A stretch of 21,712 nucleotides of DNA from a virus. Positions 6,132 through 20,505 of the stretch are shown here, in pieces. Each line of letters starts with the position of its first letter. Position 1 is the stretch's first letter. The notes beneath the pieces are model-generated. The model ran no database searches and was not told where the DNA came from. It saw only the letters and a program-made list of their open reading frames with translations. Location: positions 1 to 21,712 of the IMG/VR virus record IMGVR_UViG_3300025704_001628; one strand, given 5' to 3'. A program made the position numbers and the translations under genes.

Positions 6132-6806
6132 TTAATTATGGTCATACAATCTCCATGCGTTTTTATAGTTGTGGTCCATACCAGTCATAAACAATCCGTA
6201 CTTATCAGCTATGTCTAAAAAAGGTTCTTTTACTGTCATTCCTATTTCAGTAGTTACTTCATACAAATCATCCGAGCTAATACCGTGGTCAATCATAAAT
6301 AGTTCATCAAAGTCCCATCTAGTATCATCATCTCTATCTAAAAATTGTACTGAACCGTTAGTTATACGGACCTTCATACCTAATTCAACATCATATGGGT
6401 TTTCATCAGGAGTGTGTGTTTTCCTACTGATAACCCCAAAAGCTAAAGGTGTCACATCCATTTCGTATCCTCCTGAAGATATATGTCTTTTTTTACCTAT
6501 ACCTATTTCTTTTTTGGCTAACTCAAGTGCTTTATCATATCCACCATGGAATTTTATTTTCAGTTTGTCAATCTCCTGTTCGTGTTCTAAACAGTTCAAA
6601 CCAATATATCTACAGGGTGTTAGTTCTGTACCATTTTTACCCCAATAGTCAAATAAGAATTCTTCTACTTGAGGACTTAATTCCTTTTTTTTAGGTACTC
6701 CTTCCCAACCTTCACTCATTTCATACTCATCACTTTCAGGTGAAGCGTCAGTAACATGTGAATACTCTAAGTCTTCTTTCAATATTTTACGGATAAGTTC
6801 TCTCAT
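6132..6806 (-). CDS. Unknown protein with a possible capsid-targeting N-terminus
   Basis: A 224-residue protein. It starts MRELIRKILKED: a short amphipathic helix ending in an (I/L)xE site (LKE), then a polar linker, as in T4-like proteins sorted into the prohead and trimmed by the maturation protease. The body has a CRYIGLNCLEHEQ stretch (about 64-76) with two cysteines, and a C-terminal region GMKVRITNGSVQFLDRDDDTRW cut around residue 155. I recognise no enzyme family. It lies just downstream of the giant RNA's terminator, with a TATTTAT box nine bases before its start, so it has its own promoter. Confidence 0.65.
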   Translation of the reverse strand: MRELIRKILKEDLEYSHVTDASPESDEYEMSEGWEGVPKKKELSPQVEEFLFDYWGKNGTELTPCRYIGLNCLEHEQEIDKLKIKFHGGYDKALELAKKEIGIGKKRHISSGGYEMDVTPLAFGVISRKTHTPDENPYDVELGMKVRITNGSVQFLDRDDDTRWDFDELFMIDHGISSDDLYEVTTEIGMTVKEPFLDIADKYGLFMTGMDHNYKNAWRLYDHN

Positions 6807-6815
6807 AAGATATCA

Positions 6816-6822
6816 ATAAATA
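6816..6822 (-). promoter_or_regulatory. TATTTAT box upstream of the 6806 start
   Basis: Minus-strand CTATTTATTGATATCTT ends at the ATG at 6806. The box lies just beyond the T run of the preceding RNA terminator, as expected for a fresh transcription start. Confidence 0.35.
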
Positions 6823-6833
6823 GTTTATAAACA

Positions 6834-6863
6834 AAAAAACCTCAGTCGATTAGAACTGAGGTT
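6834..6863 (-). terminator. Intrinsic terminator of the large RNA
   Basis: Nine-base-pair stem AACCTCAGT (6838-6846) with ACTGAGGTT (6855-6863), eight-base loop; on the minus strand it runs straight into seven T. It fixes the 3' end of the RNA and its strand. Confidence 0.88.
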
Positions 6864-7059
6864 TTGATATTATATATATGTTGGGATTGGGGGTTAAGGA
6901 CGCTGAGATTACACGTTTGAAAGATTCGTCTTTTGTGGGATTATTATTACGTTTTCCCCACTTATCCACTCCCTTGACAGGAGTATCGAATCAGTGTCGG
7001 TTACTATCGGTAACCACTCGTATCGTTGATAACTACTCGATTATTACTTTACTCTCTTA

Positions 7060-7131
7060 AGACTTGCGGTCTCTCAAAGGGTTAGCCAACCCACGAGGTA
7101 TTTTATAACCAATATCCTTAGACTTGCGGTC
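7060..7131 (-). repeat. Two identical GCAA-loop hairpins within the large RNA
   Basis: AGACTTGCGGTCT (plus strand) occurs at about 7060-7072 and 7119-7131. On the minus strand it reads AGACCGCAAGTCT, a stem with a GCAA tetraloop-like end. The 7119 copy extends through TCCTT/AAGGA to a nine-pair hairpin. Confidence 0.75.
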
Positions 7132-7723
7132 TGAAGGAAAACTTCGTTGACAAAGGTCCGAAGTATTAGACACCTTTCGTCATCAACGCTCGAAGACTCG
7201 TGCTTTTCTAATTTAATTTTAGATAAACAACATGGATTTATGAAAGATGTGCTTCGAGAGAAGTTCTATACCTTTGGAGTACAGAATGCTTCACACCTCT
7301 CTGTAAGTCTGTCAACTTACGGTAATTCAGGACCACGTTAACTTACGTATCGGAGACCCATCATACTGGTACTCAGCCCTACAACACCTGACAGGGTGTG
7401 TCGAACCGTCACCTATAGCTTTTCCTATTGATATCACTATCTCAACTCTGATATTCCACGGATTCAGAGTGGTCTCGTCCCTTTAGCAGTTGCCCTTGGG
7501 GTCTTGACCGTAGCCACTTTGTTTAGTTGTCAGTCATACGACTGCGGATATCCGAGAGTTGCTCAACACTCTTCAATCCCTTTAGTCCTGTTGCCAGGGT
7601 TATCTACGACGCTAAACCGCCGATGACTAATAAACCTTTGTTTAAATTGAAAAAGGGGGTTAATCTTTTTTGATAAACTCGAACCAAAGGTTGTTCGTCA
7701 TTAGTATTTCAAAGAACTTTCGA

Positions 7724-7756
7724 CAAAGATAAGAAACTTTTTTCTTATTCTCCAAA
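7724..7756 (-). promoter_or_regulatory. Proximal promoter of the large RNA with an inverted repeat in the spacer
   Basis: Minus strand TTTG (7756-7753), a 21-base spacer, TATCTTTG (7731-7724): an exact match to the Bacteroidetes TTTG/TAnnTTTG consensus. Transcription would begin near 7717, about ten bases before the first helix. A perfect 8-bp inverted repeat, ATAAGAAA (7729-7736) with TTTCTTAT (7741-7748), fills the spacer and touches the -7 box; it could be an operator. Confidence 0.65.
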
Positions 7757-7818
7757 TGTTTTTTTACTTTTTTTAAAAAGGTAATATATAAATATTATTA
7801 TTTTCTTCAAAAGTCTTA

Positions 7819-7849
7819 CAAAGATATAAAAAAATCTATTTGAGTCAAG
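7819..7849 (-). promoter_or_regulatory. Distal promoter candidate of the large RNA
   Basis: Minus strand CTTG (7849-7846), a 19-base spacer, TATCTTTG (7826-7819). The -7 box is identical to that of the proximal promoter about 95 bases downstream. Initiation here would add roughly 95 A/T-rich bases to the RNA's 5' end. The stretch 7757-7818 shows nothing else recognisable. Confidence 0.45.
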
Positions 7850-7861
7850 CAAAAACTACAA

Positions 7862-8080
7862 TTATTCTTTAATTCGGTAGTTATCGAAGTTATTCATTAA
7901 TGTTTCTAACCGACCACTAGCGGACTCCATCTGTTCAATTAGTTTATCCATCTCTTCAAGTATACCAGGATGTTCTCCAATACCTGAGGGATTGTTAAAG
8001 TAAATTTCAAGTGTTGCTCGACTTTCTTCAATTAGCGCTTCGTATTTTTTAACCAAAGCATTAAAAATTATTGATTTCAT
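7862..8080 (-). CDS. Small helical phage protein with a GIGEHP motif
   Basis: A 72-residue, largely helical (coiled-coil-like) protein. The motif NPSGIGEHPGILEEMD (about residues 30-45), between two amphipathic helices, is one I recall from small hypothetical proteins of T4-like marine phages (NPxGIGEHP). This is a strong pointer to a phage origin, although its function is unknown. It ends one base before the promoter region of the large RNA and is divergent from the DUF192 gene, with 30 bases between starts. Confidence 0.78.
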   Translation of the reverse strand: MKSIIFNALVKKYEALIEESRATLEIYFNNPSGIGEHPGILEEMDKLIEQMESASGRLETLMNNFDNYRIKE

Positions 8081-8099
8081 ATTATTCTGTGATTACAAA

Positions 8100-8106
8100 T
8101 ATTTAT
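8100..8106 (+). promoter_or_regulatory. ATATTTAT box four bases upstream of the DUF192 gene
   Basis: AAATATTTATTATT runs directly into the ATG at 8111, the same geometry as at 1132-1138. Confidence 0.35.
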
Positions 8107-8110
8107 TATT

Positions 8111-8467
8111 ATGAAAGTAATCATAAAAGATAATATTTTTAAAGTCAAACTTTGCACCACACAGAATTCAATATCTAAAGGTATGATGGGTAAAAGATTC
8201 GATAAAGAATTTAATGGTATGTTATTTATGATGCCAAGTTCAGGAGAACAAAGTTTTTGGACATATAACTGTGTTATCCCTTTGGATATAATTATGATTA
8301 ATAACGGTGCTATTGACACTATTAACCATAGTTGTCCTCCATGTGAGATGAAAGAAAAATGTGAATCTTATACAGGTAAAGGTAATGAGGTTTTAGAATT
8401 ACAGGGCGGTACCTGTAAAAAATTGGGTATTAAAAAAGGAGACCGAGTCTCCTTTTCTTTAGTTTGA
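8111..8467 (+). CDS. DUF192 family protein
   Basis: A 118-residue protein matching the DUF192 pattern in order: KGMMGKRF (19-26), GMLFMM (36-41), FWTYNCVIPLDIIMI (49-63), the Cys-containing loop SCPPCEMKEKCESY (73-86) and VLELQGGTCKKLGIKKGDRV (93-112). The family is a small beta-barrel found in bacteria, archaea and phages with no firmly assigned reaction. There is no signal peptide, although many bacterial members have one, so this version is cytoplasmic. The last codons overlap a bidirectional terminator hairpin and the final nine bases overlap the convergent DHH phosphoesterase gene. Confidence 0.9.
   Translation: MKVIIKDNIFKVKLCTTQNSISKGMMGKRFDKEFNGMLFMMPSSGEQSFWTYNCVIPLDIIMINNGAIDTINHSCPPCEMKEKCESYTGKGNEVLELQGGTCKKLGIKKGDRVSFSLV
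8432..8458. terminator. Bidirectional terminator between DUF192 and DHH genes
   Basis: Stem GGAGAC (8438-8443) and GTCTCC (8447-8452), loop CGA, flanked by A6 on one side and TTTT on the other, so it can act for both converging genes. It lies inside the DUF192 coding sequence. Confidence 0.7.
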
Positions 8468-9874
8468 TTTACTTTCGTTAATCTTTTCTTTTAGAACTTC
8501 AACGAATCTTCGTTGAATCATCTTTACAAACTTAACGTATGGAGTGTCTCCCTCTTTTTTACCATACTTCTTTTTACCTGAAGGAGGTCTCTTACTTCTA
8601 CCAAAATAATTTAGTGCTGAAATATTTGTAATACATTTGTGACCACCTGAGTTTGCTTGAATCATTTCCCAAGCGGGTACCCCTAATTTATCTAATATTG
8701 CCCACTCAGAATCAGTTAACTCATTCGACGGTGTATTCATAATCGTTTTTAGTCTATCCATATACTCCTCTCCTCCATCTATTGAACGTACTTTATCTCC
8801 ATAAAATGCTTCTAAGTCGGCATTCGTAAATCCTACTGAATCTTCATCAAAACTTTTACCTGATTCAGAAATCCATTTAATTGTAGATAATGGAATTATT
8901 TTATCTTTTAGTTGTGGTTCCCATTTAGCTAACACTTCTTGAGCTATCTCACCTAAGTTTACACCTTTTAATTCTCTCTCTCCTTTGAATGGGTTACAAC
9001 TCGCCTGTACCAATCCCATTGGCCATGCTATGACTAAGAAGTCAGCACCAGGGTTATTCTTAAATGGTGTGTACCTATCATAAGAACCTGGTTTAAACAT
9101 TGAACCTCCACCGTATTGTACAATTATACCATCATCTACATAAACTTTGTCACTATTTTTTTGTTTTTGAACGTATCCTTTTTGATTCAAAGCCATTTCT
9201 TCAGGACTTGCATACCCTTCTTGTTGTGCTATCTTATTTATGTTTTGAAATATATTCAATAATGATGGTGTTGAGTTCATTACCAACTTCTCTAAGAATC
9301 CAGGTTTGTTTTTATATGCCAATAACAATTTATTTGTTGCCAAACCTAAAGCCATTTTATTTTGCTGTAATCCTTTATCTTTTTGTAATTTAAATATAAA
9401 GTTCATAATGTCTTGAGGTTCAAGACCAAATCTAGCGAAATCTGCCGAATCAACTGTTGATATTAATGTAATATCATCTGATGGGAATATGTCTGATGGT
9501 GACATAATATCAGAAAGTGTTGCCACATTTGAACGAGATGACCTAAAGGATGTTGAAGTATCTCCCTCAACACCAGTCTGACTATCGTGGTGGTCTGTAT
9601 GAACCACAAACATAGGTTTACCATGTGCGAAATCAACTAAGACCGGCATTGTATCTCCTTGAGCGTCCTGTTTCTTAACTGCAAACTCTTTATCTCCATA
9701 TTGAATTATTTCAGAGTCAACAACTTCAATACCATTATTTTCTAAGTAGTTTTTCATTGCCAATGCTGTAGTGACACCGTCTAAATCTTGGTGAAAGTAA
9801 ATTTTGGCTTTCTTATATCTATCGGCTAAGTCTTTTATATTTCTTAGTCCTGTCTCGTTTAATATTTTTTTCAT
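8459..9874 (-). CDS. DHH-family phosphoesterase
   Basis: A 471-residue member of the DHH superfamily (RecJ, NrnA, GdpP-type metal-dependent phosphoesterases). Metal-binding motifs are intact: HQDLDG (28-33), the Asp in VDFAHG (D81), the namesake TDHHDS (93-98) and TVDSADF (140-146). A GGHKC motif (410-414) matches the substrate-binding GGH of DHHA1-type domains. Substrates of relatives include short oligonucleotides, cyclic dinucleotides and single-stranded DNA; the sequence does not decide among them. The start MKKILNETGLRNIKDLADRY ends an amphipathic stretch in LNE, like capsid-targeting tags. It may therefore be packaged and injected. Its ATG overlaps the stop of the upstream gene by one base. 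The C-terminus is lysine/arginine-rich. Confidence 0.88.
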   Translation of the reverse strand: MKKILNETGLRNIKDLADRYKKAKIYFHQDLDGVTTALAMKNYLENNGIEVVDSEIIQYGDKEFAVKKQDAQGDTMPVLVDFAHGKPMFVVHTDHHDSQTGVEGDTSTSFRSSRSNVATLSDIMSPSDIFPSDDITLISTVDSADFARFGLEPQDIMNFIFKLQKDKGLQQNKMALGLATNKLLLAYKNKPGFLEKLVMNSTPSLLNIFQNINKIAQQEGYASPEEMALNQKGYVQKQKNSDKVYVDDGIIVQYGGGSMFKPGSYDRYTPFKNNPGADFLVIAWPMGLVQASCNPFKGERELKGVNLGEIAQEVLAKWEPQLKDKIIPLSTIKWISESGKSFDEDSVGFTNADLEAFYGDKVRSIDGGEEYMDRLKTIMNTPSNELTDSEWAILDKLGVPAWEMIQANSGGHKCITNISALNYFGRSKRPPSGKKKYGKKEGDTPYVKFVKMIQRRFVEVLKEKINESKSN

Positions 9875-10277: not shown

Positions 10278-11321
10278 TCAGTTTTCAGTATGCATATACT
10301 GCTTACCGTTAAAGATATAAATTGTTCCAAATGGAATGTCGCGAGTGCTGTCAAATCTTTGACCCATGACATTGTAGTAATTATTATCTCGTGGTTGTTG
10401 AGTGTACTGAATCTCACCGACACTATTAGTGGTGTTGTCTAACAAGACTGCGTCGATAGCATGAACTACACCATTTTGAGCTTCCAAATCAGCTAAGACT
10501 ACTGTAGCCGTACCGTTAATTGTTACTGTTTCACCGACACCGACTGTTAAAGTACCACCACCAACTGTAGTTGCTTCTAATCCATCATATAAATCAGTAC
10601 TCATAACAGTAGTACCTAATACGTGATACAAAAGAATGTCAGTCAAATTAGGAAGGACCAAAAGGTCAGTAACCTCAACACCCAATGTGGTTGCTAATGA
10701 AACAAAAGCGTCATCAGTTGGTGCGAATACTGTAAAGGTACCTTCACCTTCTAAAGTCTCTTGTAGACCTCCTGCAATAACTGCAGCTTCGAGATAGTTA
10801 TGGACCTCACTTGATTCAATCCAATCCCATACCGCAGTTACTACAGGTTCGGTAGGTGGAAGAAGTACCGCGTCAATAACATGAACAACACCATTATCTG
10901 TTGTAATGTCAGCAACAGTAACCATTGCGTTATTAACCATAACGGTACTATCAGTAAGAGTGATAGTAATATCCTCACCCAAGAGTGTTTCAAAGGTATC
11001 ACCATCCATTAAATCACCGCTCAATGCAATTGCGTTAACAACATGGTACAATAAGATATCACCCAACCCTTCAAGAGCCAATAACTCTTCGGGTGTAATA
11101 CCTAATTCATAAACCAAGTTTGTAATTGCATCATCGGTAGGTGCAAATACTGTAAATGTACCCGTGGTATCACTTAACGCTTCAACCAACCCCGCCTCGA
11201 TAACAGCAGCTTCCAATAATGTATGGTCTTCACTACCAACTATCACGTCCACAACGGTGGACTGAGAAAAACTAACTAGGGATGTTAAGGCCAATCCCAA
11301 TGCCATTAATACTTTTTTCAT
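10278..11321 (-). CDS. Secreted double-FAS1 (fasciclin) protein with a T9SS-like C-terminal tail
   Basis: A 347-residue protein. Residues 1-20 (MKKVLMALGLALTSLVSFSQ) are a typical flavobacterial Sec signal peptide. Two FAS1 adhesion domains follow, about 22-155 and 166-295, each with the H1 motif TVFAPTDDA (57-65, 197-205), the YHV motif (92-94, 232-234) and a closing GVVHxIDAVLL. The last 35 residues (YYNVMGQRF, then IPFGTIYIFNGKQY) resemble the type A sorting domain that directs proteins through the type IX secretion system. The protein at 20552 ends with a very similar tail. A sampled line of the gene is 42% G+C, above its neighbours, suggesting recent acquisition from a host. It has its own TTGACT promoter and terminator. 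Probable role: cell-surface adhesion or aggregation during infection, an inference. Confidence 0.93.
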   Translation of the reverse strand: MKKVLMALGLALTSLVSFSQSTVVDVIVGSEDHTLLEAAVIEAGLVEALSDTTGTFTVFAPTDDAITNLVYELGITPEELLALEGLGDILLYHVVNAIALSGDLMDGDTFETLLGEDITITLTDSTVMVNNAMVTVADITTDNGVVHVIDAVLLPPTEPVVTAVWDWIESSEVHNYLEAAVIAGGLQETLEGEGTFTVFAPTDDAFVSLATTLGVEVTDLLVLPNLTDILLYHVLGTTVMSTDLYDGLEATTVGGGTLTVGVGETVTINGTATVVLADLEAQNGVVHAIDAVLLDNTTNSVGEIQYTQQPRDNNYYNVMGQRFDSTRDIPFGTIYIFNGKQYMHTEN

Positions 11322-11420: not shown

Positions 11421-11451
11421 AAAAAAGACCCCTTATTATAAGGAGTCTTTT
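11421..11451 (-). terminator. Terminator overlapping the PEP carboxykinase stop codon
   Basis: Stem built from GAC/GTC and CCTT/AAGG with one C-A mismatch (11427-11434 with 11440-11447), extended by A-T pairs; T6 follows on the minus strand. The TAA stop (11438-11436) sits in the loop, so the gene and its terminator are fused compactly. Confidence 0.8.
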
Positions 11452-12908
11452 ATCATATTAAAAAATTTATCTTGTCTATTATTATCAGGTTTTTCAAAAA
11501 CTTTTTCCATATTATACTCACATATTCTTTTTGGAATTTTTAATCCATTATAGTTTATGTAATCATCTTCGTAATCTCTATCTATAACTCCGTTAATTAC
11601 TCCGCGAGTTTGTTTTAGTGAAAATCTATTATAATTTTTATCAAAACCTGTATTTACTAACCAAACTTTTACTTTCTTATTATCCCCTATCCTTTCTCTG
11701 AACATGTCAGTGTAGTCAGATATTTTTCTAGGTAAGAATGGGTCGCCAAAACAAGGTGAGAATGTTGTGGTGGGTTCAGTAACCCCGACTTCAGTACCCG
11801 CAACTTTTGATGTATATCCTAACCCAAAGTACTTAACAGCTTGTTCTGTGTTGAGTAGTGATATTGGAGGTAATACACCGAAAGCATCGAAAGATAAGAA
11901 GAATATATTCTCAACCTCTACGCCCCTACCTGTCATACTTACTTTAACGTCACGCCTTATTTGGTCCAATGGGTAAGAAACTCTAATGTTTTCTGTTATA
12001 CTACTATCACTAAAGTCAACAACACCTTCCTCATTAACAATAACGTTCTCCAATAATGAAGTATTTGTTCTAGTGAATTTACTATGGATTGCATCCCATA
12101 TTACAGGTTCTTTATATTCATCTAAATCTATGAGTTTAGCGTAACACCCACCTTCAAAGTTATATATGTAATCATTATACCAACCGTGTTCATCATCCCC
12201 AATAAAATACTTTAAAGGGTCTGAGGATAAAGTTGTTTTACCAGTACCTGACAGTCCAAAAAATAAATTAACACCTCTACCATCTTTAGTATTAGCGTTA
12301 GCGGAACAATGCATCGGTAAGACTCCTCTATCAACTAAAAGAGTATTCATAACGGTAAAGATACTTTTCTTTATCTCACCCGTATAACTCGTACCAGCTA
12401 TTAGAATTTTTCTATCATCAAAATCTATTATTACGAAATTCTCATTTTTAACATCCTTGGGTCTATTTTTACTTACAAAATCAGGACAATGTAATATTTC
12501 CCATTCAGTGAATGTGGTTGAGAATGTTGTTACAAAACTTTGTGGGTCAATTAACATATTGTTGAAAAATATAATTGCCCAAGGCTCAGTACTCGTTATT
12601 TTAAAAGTCGCGCTGTGTTCATAGTTATAACCTGCTACTTGCCTAGCACTAAAAGTTTTTGTTTCTTCAATATAATCTTTAATTTCATTTTTTAATGAAA
12701 GATAACTATCTCTATTTACCCTTTGGTTTATGACTCTTTCAAAATCGATTGTATTATCTGTGTATTTTCCCTCAGAAAAATATCTGTCTTTAGGTGACCT
12801 TCCAGTAAACTTACCAGTATTAAAATATAATAGACCGTCTTTGGTCGTCTTTATTCCTCTCTCCTTAGCAAGGGCCATTAATTGCTCAGTAGTTTCGTAA
12901 TAAACCAT
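11436..12908 (-). CDS. pckA: ATP-dependent phosphoenolpyruvate carboxykinase
   Basis: Interconverts oxaloacetate plus ATP with PEP, CO2 and ADP. All catalytic motifs are visible in 490 residues: GRSPKDRYF (36-44, substrate Arg), AGTSYTGEIKK (171-181, metal-binding Lys), HCSAN (200-204, metal-binding His), the P-loop GLSGTGKTTLS (218-228), IGDDEHGW (236-243) and ENIRVSYP (306-313). It is about 40-50 residues shorter than E. coli Pck. The C-terminal region after VNTGF lacks the usual Gly-rich segment (KNYNRFSLKQTRG instead of GxxGxGKR). It begins five bases after the methyltransferase stop and closes a long minus-strand operon of phage-type genes, so it is an unusual auxiliary metabolic gene. 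It could pull carbon from the TCA cycle to sugars, or fix CO2 in reverse. Confidence 0.96.
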   Translation of the reverse strand: MVYYETTEQLMALAKERGIKTTKDGLLYFNTGKFTGRSPKDRYFSEGKYTDNTIDFERVINQRVNRDSYLSLKNEIKDYIEETKTFSARQVAGYNYEHSATFKITSTEPWAIIFFNNMLIDPQSFVTTFSTTFTEWEILHCPDFVSKNRPKDVKNENFVIIDFDDRKILIAGTSYTGEIKKSIFTVMNTLLVDRGVLPMHCSANANTKDGRGVNLFFGLSGTGKTTLSSDPLKYFIGDDEHGWYNDYIYNFEGGCYAKLIDLDEYKEPVIWDAIHSKFTRTNTSLLENVIVNEEGVVDFSDSSITENIRVSYPLDQIRRDVKVSMTGRGVEVENIFFLSFDAFGVLPPISLLNTEQAVKYFGLGYTSKVAGTEVGVTEPTTTFSPCFGDPFLPRKISDYTDMFRERIGDNKKVKVWLVNTGFDKNYNRFSLKQTRGVINGVIDRDYEDDYINYNGLKIPKRICEYNMEKVFEKPDNNRQDKFFNMIKDSL

Positions 12909-19079: not shown

Positions 19080-19426
19080 GATATTGTTTTGTATTTCTTA
19101 AATTTATTTAAGTAAAATATTATACTGTCTGTTGAACCTTCTTTAGATAGACAGAATAATTTATATATATTTTCATCTACTTTTTTTACGAAATAAAAAA
19201 GTATTTTATTATCAAATTCTATTAGTCCGTTATTATAAATAGTAGTTGAACCATTGTAGTATTTATTAGACCATATTATTTTGTTTGATTTAAGTATAGT
19301 CTGTAGTAACTCCACAGTATAAAAGTCTGTCTCAAGTATAGAGGGTTTAAAACCAATAATGTCCTCCGACAATTTTAGTAAATCATCGGGGACACTATCA
19401 TAAGTATTATTTTTTTCTGTAATCAA
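19076..19426 (-). CDS. Small unknown protein with a TTG start, coupled to glutamine synthetase
   Basis: 116 residues. The only possible start is a TTG at 19426, which overlaps the glutamine synthetase stop in the four bases TTGA; no internal ATG exists. A short helical N-terminal part (PDDLLKLSEDIIGFKPS) is followed by strands IIWSNKYYNGSTTIYNNG, KILFYFVKK and KLFCLS. The 'stimulus-free' SMI1-like look is weak and I assign no family. The tight coupling upstream and downstream (thioredoxin start overlaps its stop) suggests it belongs functionally to the set. Confidence 0.65.
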   Translation of the reverse strand: MITEKNNTYDSVPDDLLKLSEDIIGFKPSILETDFYTVELLQTILKSNKIIWSNKYYNGSTTIYNNGLIEFDNKILFYFVKKVDENIYKLFCLSKEGSTDSIIFYLNKFKKYKTIS

Positions 19427-20505
19427 CTTATCGAAAGTTCTTCAGACATTTCAAGTGGTTGGTCTTGACCATTTTTACATAAATCAATGGTGTCACTAAT
19501 CACTTTGGTTATCTTGTATGGGTCTCCATTAGAAGCTGGTCTTCGGTCTTCTAAATAACCGTTCCACGTTTTAGAGGTCTCAAGAGGAACTCTAATTGAT
19601 GCACCTCTATCCGATATACCCCAACTAAATTTAGTTATATTTTGAGTCTCGTGAAGACCTGTCAAACGTAATTCATTACATGAACCGTAGTTTTCTATGT
19701 GTTCCAAATGACGAGATTCAAATAACTCAAGAATAGTTTCATAATATTCCTTATTACCATCTTCTCTCATTATTTTATCTGAAAAATTGCAATGAAGTCC
19801 TGAACCATTCCAATCACCTAATACTGGTTTTGGGTGAAACTCAATATGATAATCATATTCCTCTGACATTTGTTGTAGAATGTATCTAGAAATCCACAAA
19901 TCATCACCAGCTTTAACCTTACCTTTACTAAATACCTGATATTCCCACTGACCTAACATAACCTCAGCATTTGTACCTGTAATGTCAATACCAGCCATTA
20001 GACAGTTTTCCAAATGTGAATCAACAAAACTTCTACCACTTACTTGTAATTTACCTACACCACAGTAATACTTTCCTTGTGGTTCAGGAAATCCGTCTTT
20101 TGGAAATCCTAAAGGTTTACCATCTTTCATAAGTGTGTATTCCTGTTCAAACCCAAACCAAAGATTTTCGTCTTCATTTGTAAACAATCCTCTTGTATTA
20201 GTTTCGTGTGGTGTTCCGTCAGGATTCATTACTTCACATAAAACTAAGTAACTATCTAACATACCTTTATTTAAAGGATTTGGATAAAGTTTAACGGGTT
20301 TAAGTACACAATCTGAAAAGTGTCCTTTAGCTTGTTGAGTTGACGACCCGTCAAATGCCCATTGAGGACAATCAGTTAACCCAACTCCGTGAACTTTTTT
20401 TCCGTTTACTTCATGTGTGGGTGAATTAATTATTTTTACCTTACTTCTTAGATTAGGTTCGGGTTCATACCCATCTAACCATATATACTCTAACTTAATT
20501 TTCAT
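19423..20505 (-). CDS. glnA: Glutamine synthetase, type II (beta-grasp form)
   Basis: Forms glutamine from glutamate, ammonia and ATP. The 360-residue length and motifs fit the short GSII class seen in eukaryotes and many Bacteroidetes: EYIWLDGYEPEPNLRSK (6-22), WAFDGSSTQQA (49-59), WFGFEQEY (116-123, metal-binding Glu), GQWEYQ (185-190), HPKPVLGDWNGSGLH (214-228), RLTGLHET (270-277), GASIRVP (291-297) and EDRRPASNGDPY (309-320). All key residues are present. About 15 extra C-terminal residues (QDQPLEMSEELSIS) follow the usual end. It heads the minus-strand set glnA, small gene, trxA, glutaredoxin. A phage copy would secure glutamine for purine and pyrimidine synthesis. Its own TTGACT promoter lies just upstream. 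Confidence 0.95.
   Translation of the reverse strand: MKIKLEYIWLDGYEPEPNLRSKVKIINSPTHEVNGKKVHGVGLTDCPQWAFDGSSTQQAKGHFSDCVLKPVKLYPNPLNKGMLDSYLVLCEVMNPDGTPHETNTRGLFTNEDENLWFGFEQEYTLMKDGKPLGFPKDGFPEPQGKYYCGVGKLQVSGRSFVDSHLENCLMAGIDITGTNAEVMLGQWEYQVFSKGKVKAGDDLWISRYILQQMSEEYDYHIEFHPKPVLGDWNGSGLHCNFSDKIMREDGNKEYYETILELFESRHLEHIENYGSCNELRLTGLHETQNITKFSWGISDRGASIRVPLETSKTWNGYLEDRRPASNGDPYKITKVISDTIDLCKNGQDQPLEMSEELSIS

Follow-up and report, generated by a model that had tools for sequence, protein, structure and literature searches.

On the minus strand of the window, by which we mean the whole 21.7-kb stretch of viral DNA analysed here, the element at about 7720-6836 is, with virtual certainty, a GOLLD RNA, and its gene opens with a Bacteroidota-type promoter and a boxA-like motif, GTTCTTTGA. 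GOLLD is an established class, so the body of the RNA alone adds one further, ordinary GOLLD; the novel part is the gene head, that is, the promoter and the boxA-like motif, and not the RNA class. Reading from the sequence, we propose that GOLLD may be made in the manner of rRNA, as an antiterminated stable RNA that uses the Nus factors of the host, and we put the probability of this at roughly 0.7.

The element lies in a gap of 1055 bases (6807-7861) without a plausible gene, between two minus-strand genes that have no Pfam match, a downstream neighbour of 224 aa (6132-6806) and an upstream neighbour of 72 aa (7862-8080). In the program-made ORF list, the only ORFs of at least 50 aa wholly within the gap are two of 60 and 64 aa on the opposite strand, in agreement with the first-pass annotation, which had seen about 1 kb without plausible coding sequence. 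It had also reported a raised G+C content, and this too holds: the value is 43% in 6900-7621 and 33% over the window as a whole, other parts of which reach 40-41% when measured over 500 bases. The Rfam model RF02032 (GOLLD) matches 6900-7301 on the minus strand over its full length (model positions 1-416 of 416) with 304.9 bits, far over the curated cut-off of 150, and no other Rfam model reaches its gathering score anywhere in the 21.7 kb. ROOL, OLE, HEARO and the group I and group II introns gave no gathering-score match in the window and none up to an E-value of 5 in 6500-8200, where, in a permissive search, all the matches other than GOLLD stayed under their own gathering scores. The Rfam comparison proposed at first pass, which named these same families, thus singles out GOLLD. 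With RF02032 alone passing its cut-off, the guess of a member or analogue of the GOLLD/ROOL class was correct and the class is one already known; the accompanying suggestion that the RNA may be undescribed can apply to the present copy, but not to the class.

For comparison, homologous loci were gathered by searching IMG/VR with three DNA patterns and with two proteins encoded nearby. The GOLLD region is present in 65 loci, several of which share one contig and one of which (L001) is the window's own. After L018, L007 and seven partial loci were left out, 56 were used, and these were collapsed at more than 90% shared 12-mers to 25 non-redundant full-length loci. Another locus found by pattern, L019, contains no GOLLD according to the model. 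The consensus fold derived from the 25 loci has 209 pairs in 37 helices, as the many hairpins noticed at first pass had suggested. Covariation was counted in an alignment of 27 sequences, namely the 25 loci and two megaphage copies, whose alignment is poor over some stretches of the 5' domain but which were retained for counting. In this alignment, 117 of the 209 pairs are changed on both sides (shuffles give 64.6 and slid copies 31-46); 95.3% of the cells are paired (84.1% in shuffles); and the covariation score is 0.382, compared with 0.173 when shuffled and 0.05-0.09 when the partners are slid, a control that favours the fold because the structure itself was derived from 25 of the 27 sequences. 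The both-side changes fall in 52 of the 95 pairs of helices 1-19, whose 5' strands lie in 7303-7621, outside the Rfam model, and in 65 of the 114 pairs of helices 20-37. The covariation across homologues that the first-pass annotation had proposed to look for is therefore present.

In other words, the body of the RNA is, by these sequence comparisons, a two-domain covarying GOLLD, in which the 5' domain (7302-7621, minus strand), beginning GGCGG and outside the Rfam model, covaries too, like the 3' domain (6900-7301, minus strand) that RF02032 describes. A variable linker at 7196-7241 is unpaired between helices in the consensus fold. The long-range pairing of GGGATTG with CAATCCC, which had been proposed as a possible closure of the core, finds no support: 7576-7579 pairs with 7546-7549 in the consensus fold, and the supposed partner, 6883-6889, lies in an unconserved stretch 3' of the GOLLD core. 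At the 3' end, a terminator scan finds an intrinsic terminator hairpin and T-run (6829-6865, minus strand), its hairpin part at 6865-6836 agreeing with the terminator noted earlier, and each of the 25 non-redundant loci shows a hairpin of terminator type 3' of GOLLD. The GOLLD match, the promoter and the terminator are all on the minus strand, the orientation assigned at first pass, and from the promoter and the terminator we predict a transcript of about 0.88 kb (6836-7720), its start at about 7720 being an estimate placed some 4 nt past the -7 element.

The available part of PMC12286853 describes GOLLD env-38 as a 14-mer cage with a 5' cap and a 3' ring, in which the linker matching 7196-7241 is disordered and lies within the cage. 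As far as that description reaches, the present copy resembles env-38 in its whole-model 3' domain, in possessing a 5' domain, a 3' domain and a variable linker, in being phage-borne and in its transcript of more than 800 nt; it differs in having its own Bacteroidota-type promoter and boxA-like motif. A structured but less conserved 5' domain is likewise found, in the covarying helices of 7302-7621, a correspondence judged from the alignment of the 27 sequences. By analogy, the present copy would probably form a cage too; a role of such a cage around translation components is unlikely.

The source is a jumbo phage with a probable Bacteroidota host, and a T4-type capsid gene occurs in its relatives. 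A 50.6-kb contig is 99.99% identical to the window over the 10.5 kb compared, and a 270-kb contig (G001) is 81-88% identical in long matching pieces. Eight of ten relatives searched with the model carry GOLLD, one copy each in G001, G002 (297 kb) and G003 (199 kb); it was not found by this search in G005 and G009, which may be fragments. G001-G003 carry a T4-type major capsid gene, and the window itself is a virus record, as expected of a phage-borne RNA. Compared through two proteins of the window, the closest public phages are uncultured megaphages, 634-735 kb in size (better matches, 41-56% identity), and among three of these that were searched, LR745206 and LR756502 have GOLLD and LR756501 has none. 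The Bacteroidetes host named at first pass is supported by the promoter type and the nearest named phages, short of proof. “Moraphages”, characterized in the part of PMC12619734 available as phages of 200-307 kbp with mostly Bacteroidota hosts and with glutamine synthetases, may be the lineage of the window. Among the metabolic genes of the window (11436-12908, 19423-20505, 1826-2863 and 10278-11321), PEP carboxykinase and thymidylate synthase were recognized by Pfam search, and a glutamine synthetase and a fasciclin-like protein were read by eye. A 471-aa protein at 8459-9874 (minus strand) has no Pfam match at an E-value of 0.001 and 595 relatives confirmed in viral contigs; by eye, it has what we take to be a DHH-like motif.

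TTG-N19-21-TAnnTTTG is the promoter form of the Bacteroidota. In 24 of the 25 loci it is present in the 200 nt that precede the GOLLD core, against a shuffle mean of 0.28 (the one exception, L015, lacks the -33 part), and 13 of the 25 have two such matches. In the window, the promoter kept across loci is TTTG ... TATCTTTG at 7724-7756 on the minus strand (TTG-N21-TAnnTTTG), and a candidate distal promoter, TTG-N19-TATCTTTG, may lie at 7819-7848 on the same strand. A consensus promoter at this end had been noted before; a sigma-70 scan is unspecific (13 found, 5.9 expected), and the one backed by conservation is of Bacteroidota type, at 7756-7724. At about 7780-7800 and in homologues, 21 of the 25 loci in all, TATTTATA is found no more than 330 nt ahead of the core; this is TATAAATA on the other strand, a sequence that we regard as T4-late-like and that is present on the GOLLD strand in none of the 25.

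Between promoter and core, all 25 loci have GTTCTT followed by TGA (21), ACA (3) or TAA (1), where the shuffle mean is 0.29 for these three variants, which were fixed after the alignment was inspected. GTTCTTTGA alone occurs in 21 of the 25 (shuffle mean 0.11), and promoter and boxA-like motif occur together in 24 of the 25, against none in 200 shuffles. In the window, the motif is at 7709-7717 (minus strand), so that the end of the element given at first pass, 7717, is the edge of the motif. The leader from there to the GOLLD core (7622-7708) is poorly conserved. Because the spacing varies on both sides, about 5-66 nt to the promoter and 22-108 nt to the core, the motif belongs rigidly neither to the promoter nor to the fold. 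In 24 of the 25 loci it follows the promoter, the transcript start being an estimated position; in eight loci it lies only 5-7 nt past TAnnTTTG, at the extreme edge of the predicted transcript, which counts against reading it as a boxA.

The same head is seen ahead of rRNA. GTDB genome scans with the GOLLD pattern (no match) and with the window's PEPCK protein (none confirmed) were empty and hence reached no Bacteroidota chromosome, so the rRNA leaders come from plasmid records: seven Bacteroidota records among the 40 matches listed out of 503 to plasmids. A scan for Bacteroidota 16S in viral contigs found none. Of the seven 16S leaders, six contain GTTCTTTGA at 122-223 nt ahead of the 16S anchor (Persicobacter two, Aureibacter one, Segatella three), the Flammeovirga leader has GTTCTTTTGA instead, and six have TAnnTTTG upstream; E. 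coli rrnH has GCTCTTTAACA. The likeness to the GOLLD gene is thus that of promoter element and motif ahead of a long untranslated RNA; the difference is that it is rRNA, and not a phage RNA, that is driven, and the boxA role in these leaders would follow from position and sequence.

The motif also marks other stable RNA genes of the phages. G001-G003 together contain 22 occurrences of GTTCTTTGA, of which five have a tRNA or GOLLD no more than 250 nt downstream (none of the 13 occurrences of the reversed control does), three head tmRNA genes, three stand ahead of a small ORF and 11 are elsewhere. The tmRNAs (G001:135635-136024, G002:234463-234852 and G003:75049-75438) have Rfam matches of 97, 85 and 83 bits, were detected by Rfam in all three jumbo phages and by ARAGORN in one, and are each headed by GTTCTTTGA 4-15 nt past TAnnTTTG. 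In all three, GTTCTTTGACATA (G001:167842, G002:268461 and G003:102370) precedes a small ORF, 111-114 aa long, that lies in the tRNA array or past it. With the third codon-length part of the motif widened to TGA, TAA or ACA, these contigs yield 67 occurrences, five of them near tRNA or GOLLD, and the reversed control yields 30, with none near. TAnnTTTG followed within 80 nt by the boxA-like motif is found 13 times, against two for the reversal, at three GOLLDs, three tmRNAs and seven other places. In the three megaphages, seven of 48 occurrences are within 250 nt upstream of tRNA or GOLLD, where 0.29 would be expected (p = 1.9e-8); the remaining 41 are elsewhere, and the bare 9-mer shows little excess over its reversal in eight records (75 vs 56), both of which count against a boxA reading. 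LR745206 has the motif between a tRNA and GOLLD, and in LR756501 it stands about 24 nt ahead of a sub-cut-off tmRNA match (21.1 bits), where ARAGORN finds no tmRNA. As a fact of sequence, a conserved rRNA-type head of GOLLD, shared with the tmRNA and tRNA arrays of the phages, is well supported.

This head is not universal, being absent from the GOLLDs of Acinetobacter phages and from one of the two GOLLD megaphages, LR756502, at whose GOLLD there is no GTTCTTTGA. The Acinetobacter phages (Ab15 and relatives) are alike in the RNA itself, with an RF02032 match of 218.9 bits in Ab15 and a 5'-domain start similar by eye, but their GOLLD sits inside a tRNA array and has no boxA-like head; a loose boxA pattern matches twice in three such loci, neither time where the GOLLD array begins. 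In its deposited record, the Ab15 GOLLD (L018, 2764-3129) is overlapped by small opposite-strand “hypothetical protein” genes, probably false gene calls. A neighbouring tRNA is frequent but not obligatory for the class: GOLLD adjoins tRNAs in LR745206, LR756502 and the Acinetobacter phages, the 21.7-kb window has none, and in G001 a tRNA array lies about 37 kb from GOLLD. The tRNA-like genes flanking GOLLD in the megaphages have apparent insertions in the D-arm region (L117, about 718-815 and 1914-2012; L118, about 854-970 and 1917-1990), and in LR745206 the copies on either side look identical by eye. ROOL and the ICP1 lncRNA are described, in the available parts of PMC5643018 and PMC7567579, as large non-coding RNAs of phages or prophages, abundant where tested. 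The element of the window differs from ROOL in having no ROOL match, and the 1-kb gap of ICP1 shows no GOLLD or ROOL match, nothing over gathering score and, by eye, no boxA-like head.

We speculate that host RNA polymerase would initiate near 7720, that host NusB-S10 would bind the boxA-like RNA and render the elongation complex resistant to Rho, and that the untranslated transcript of about 0.88 kb could in this way be completed and fold in the manner of rRNA. The GOLLD RNA would then self-assemble into an env-38-type cage with a 5' cap and a 3' ring and accumulate during lytic infection. That the Nus factors are those of the host is our inference, and it counts in its support that no NusB was found in six phage records. 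In E. coli, boxA-dependent antitermination serves rRNA transcription and NusB binds boxA, according to the parts of PMC10250234 and PMC4807359 available. A survey of gamma-proteobacterial boxA elements left out non-coding RNAs by its own statement (PMC5725501, in the part available). In the literature searched, mostly without subscription papers, we found no link between GOLLD and boxA and no case of GTTCTTTGA acting as a boxA in Bacteroidota; “boxA” has no occurrence in PMC12286853, PMC5643018 or PMC7567579, as far as their text was available.

Several other explanations should be weighed. That the stretch is not GOLLD at all, and instead an intron, the remains of a gene or a structured RNA of some other kind, has a negligible chance: apart from the absence of the GOLLD 5' domain from Rfam, no evidence was found for it, whereas RF02032 alone exceeds its gathering score, neither ROOL, OLE, HEARO nor an intron family appears at the permissive E-value in 6500-8200, the fold covaries and the ORFs wholly within the gap do not exceed 64 aa. 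A more serious objection accepts GOLLD and takes GTTCTTTGA to be a signal by which the stable RNA genes of this clade govern initiation, stability or RNA processing, rather than an antitermination site. The close approach to the promoter in eight of 24 loci, the position in three phages immediately before the 5' end of tmRNA, and the literature searched, which yielded no phage boxA function in Bacteroidota, all suit this view, and yet the distance to the promoter ranges from 5 to 66 nt, the motif stands between tRNA and GOLLD in LR745206, and the variants TGA, TAA and ACA are within known boxA forms, TAA being that of E. coli rrnH. ACA is the boxA form of the lambda nut sites. Such a signal is on balance unlikely, though it is the strongest competitor, and a boxA function of the motif at the head of GOLLD is, from its sequence, probable.

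It could also be imagined that the phage captured the start of an rRNA or tRNA operon by recombination, so that the head is a passenger whose boxA-like motif is useless to GOLLD. The tandem promoter matches in 13 of the 25 loci and the recurrence of this head at tmRNA and at tRNA arrays resemble the reuse of an operon start; against this, every one of the 25 loci retains the motif in a surrounding leader that is unconserved, and we regard capture without function as improbable.

Beyond the single gene, antiterminated transcription of GOLLD may be one case of a wider arrangement, which we favour slightly over its denial: large Bacteroidota phages would run a small stable-RNA regulon (GOLLD, tmRNA and parts of the tRNA arrays) headed by a boxA of host rRNA type, and would borrow the rRNA antitermination of the host to produce long untranslated RNAs, including that of a cage. 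How a long untranslated phage RNA avoids Rho has found no explanation for GOLLD in the literature searched, and the conserved rRNA-type boxA-like motif offers a testable answer, with the hint that GOLLD is made as rRNA is. The motif is also a sequence tag for finding further stable RNA genes of Bacteroidota phages. The stretch from promoter to terminator is a self-contained transcription unit, which could be transferred to a Bacteroidota strain to probe the task of the cage.
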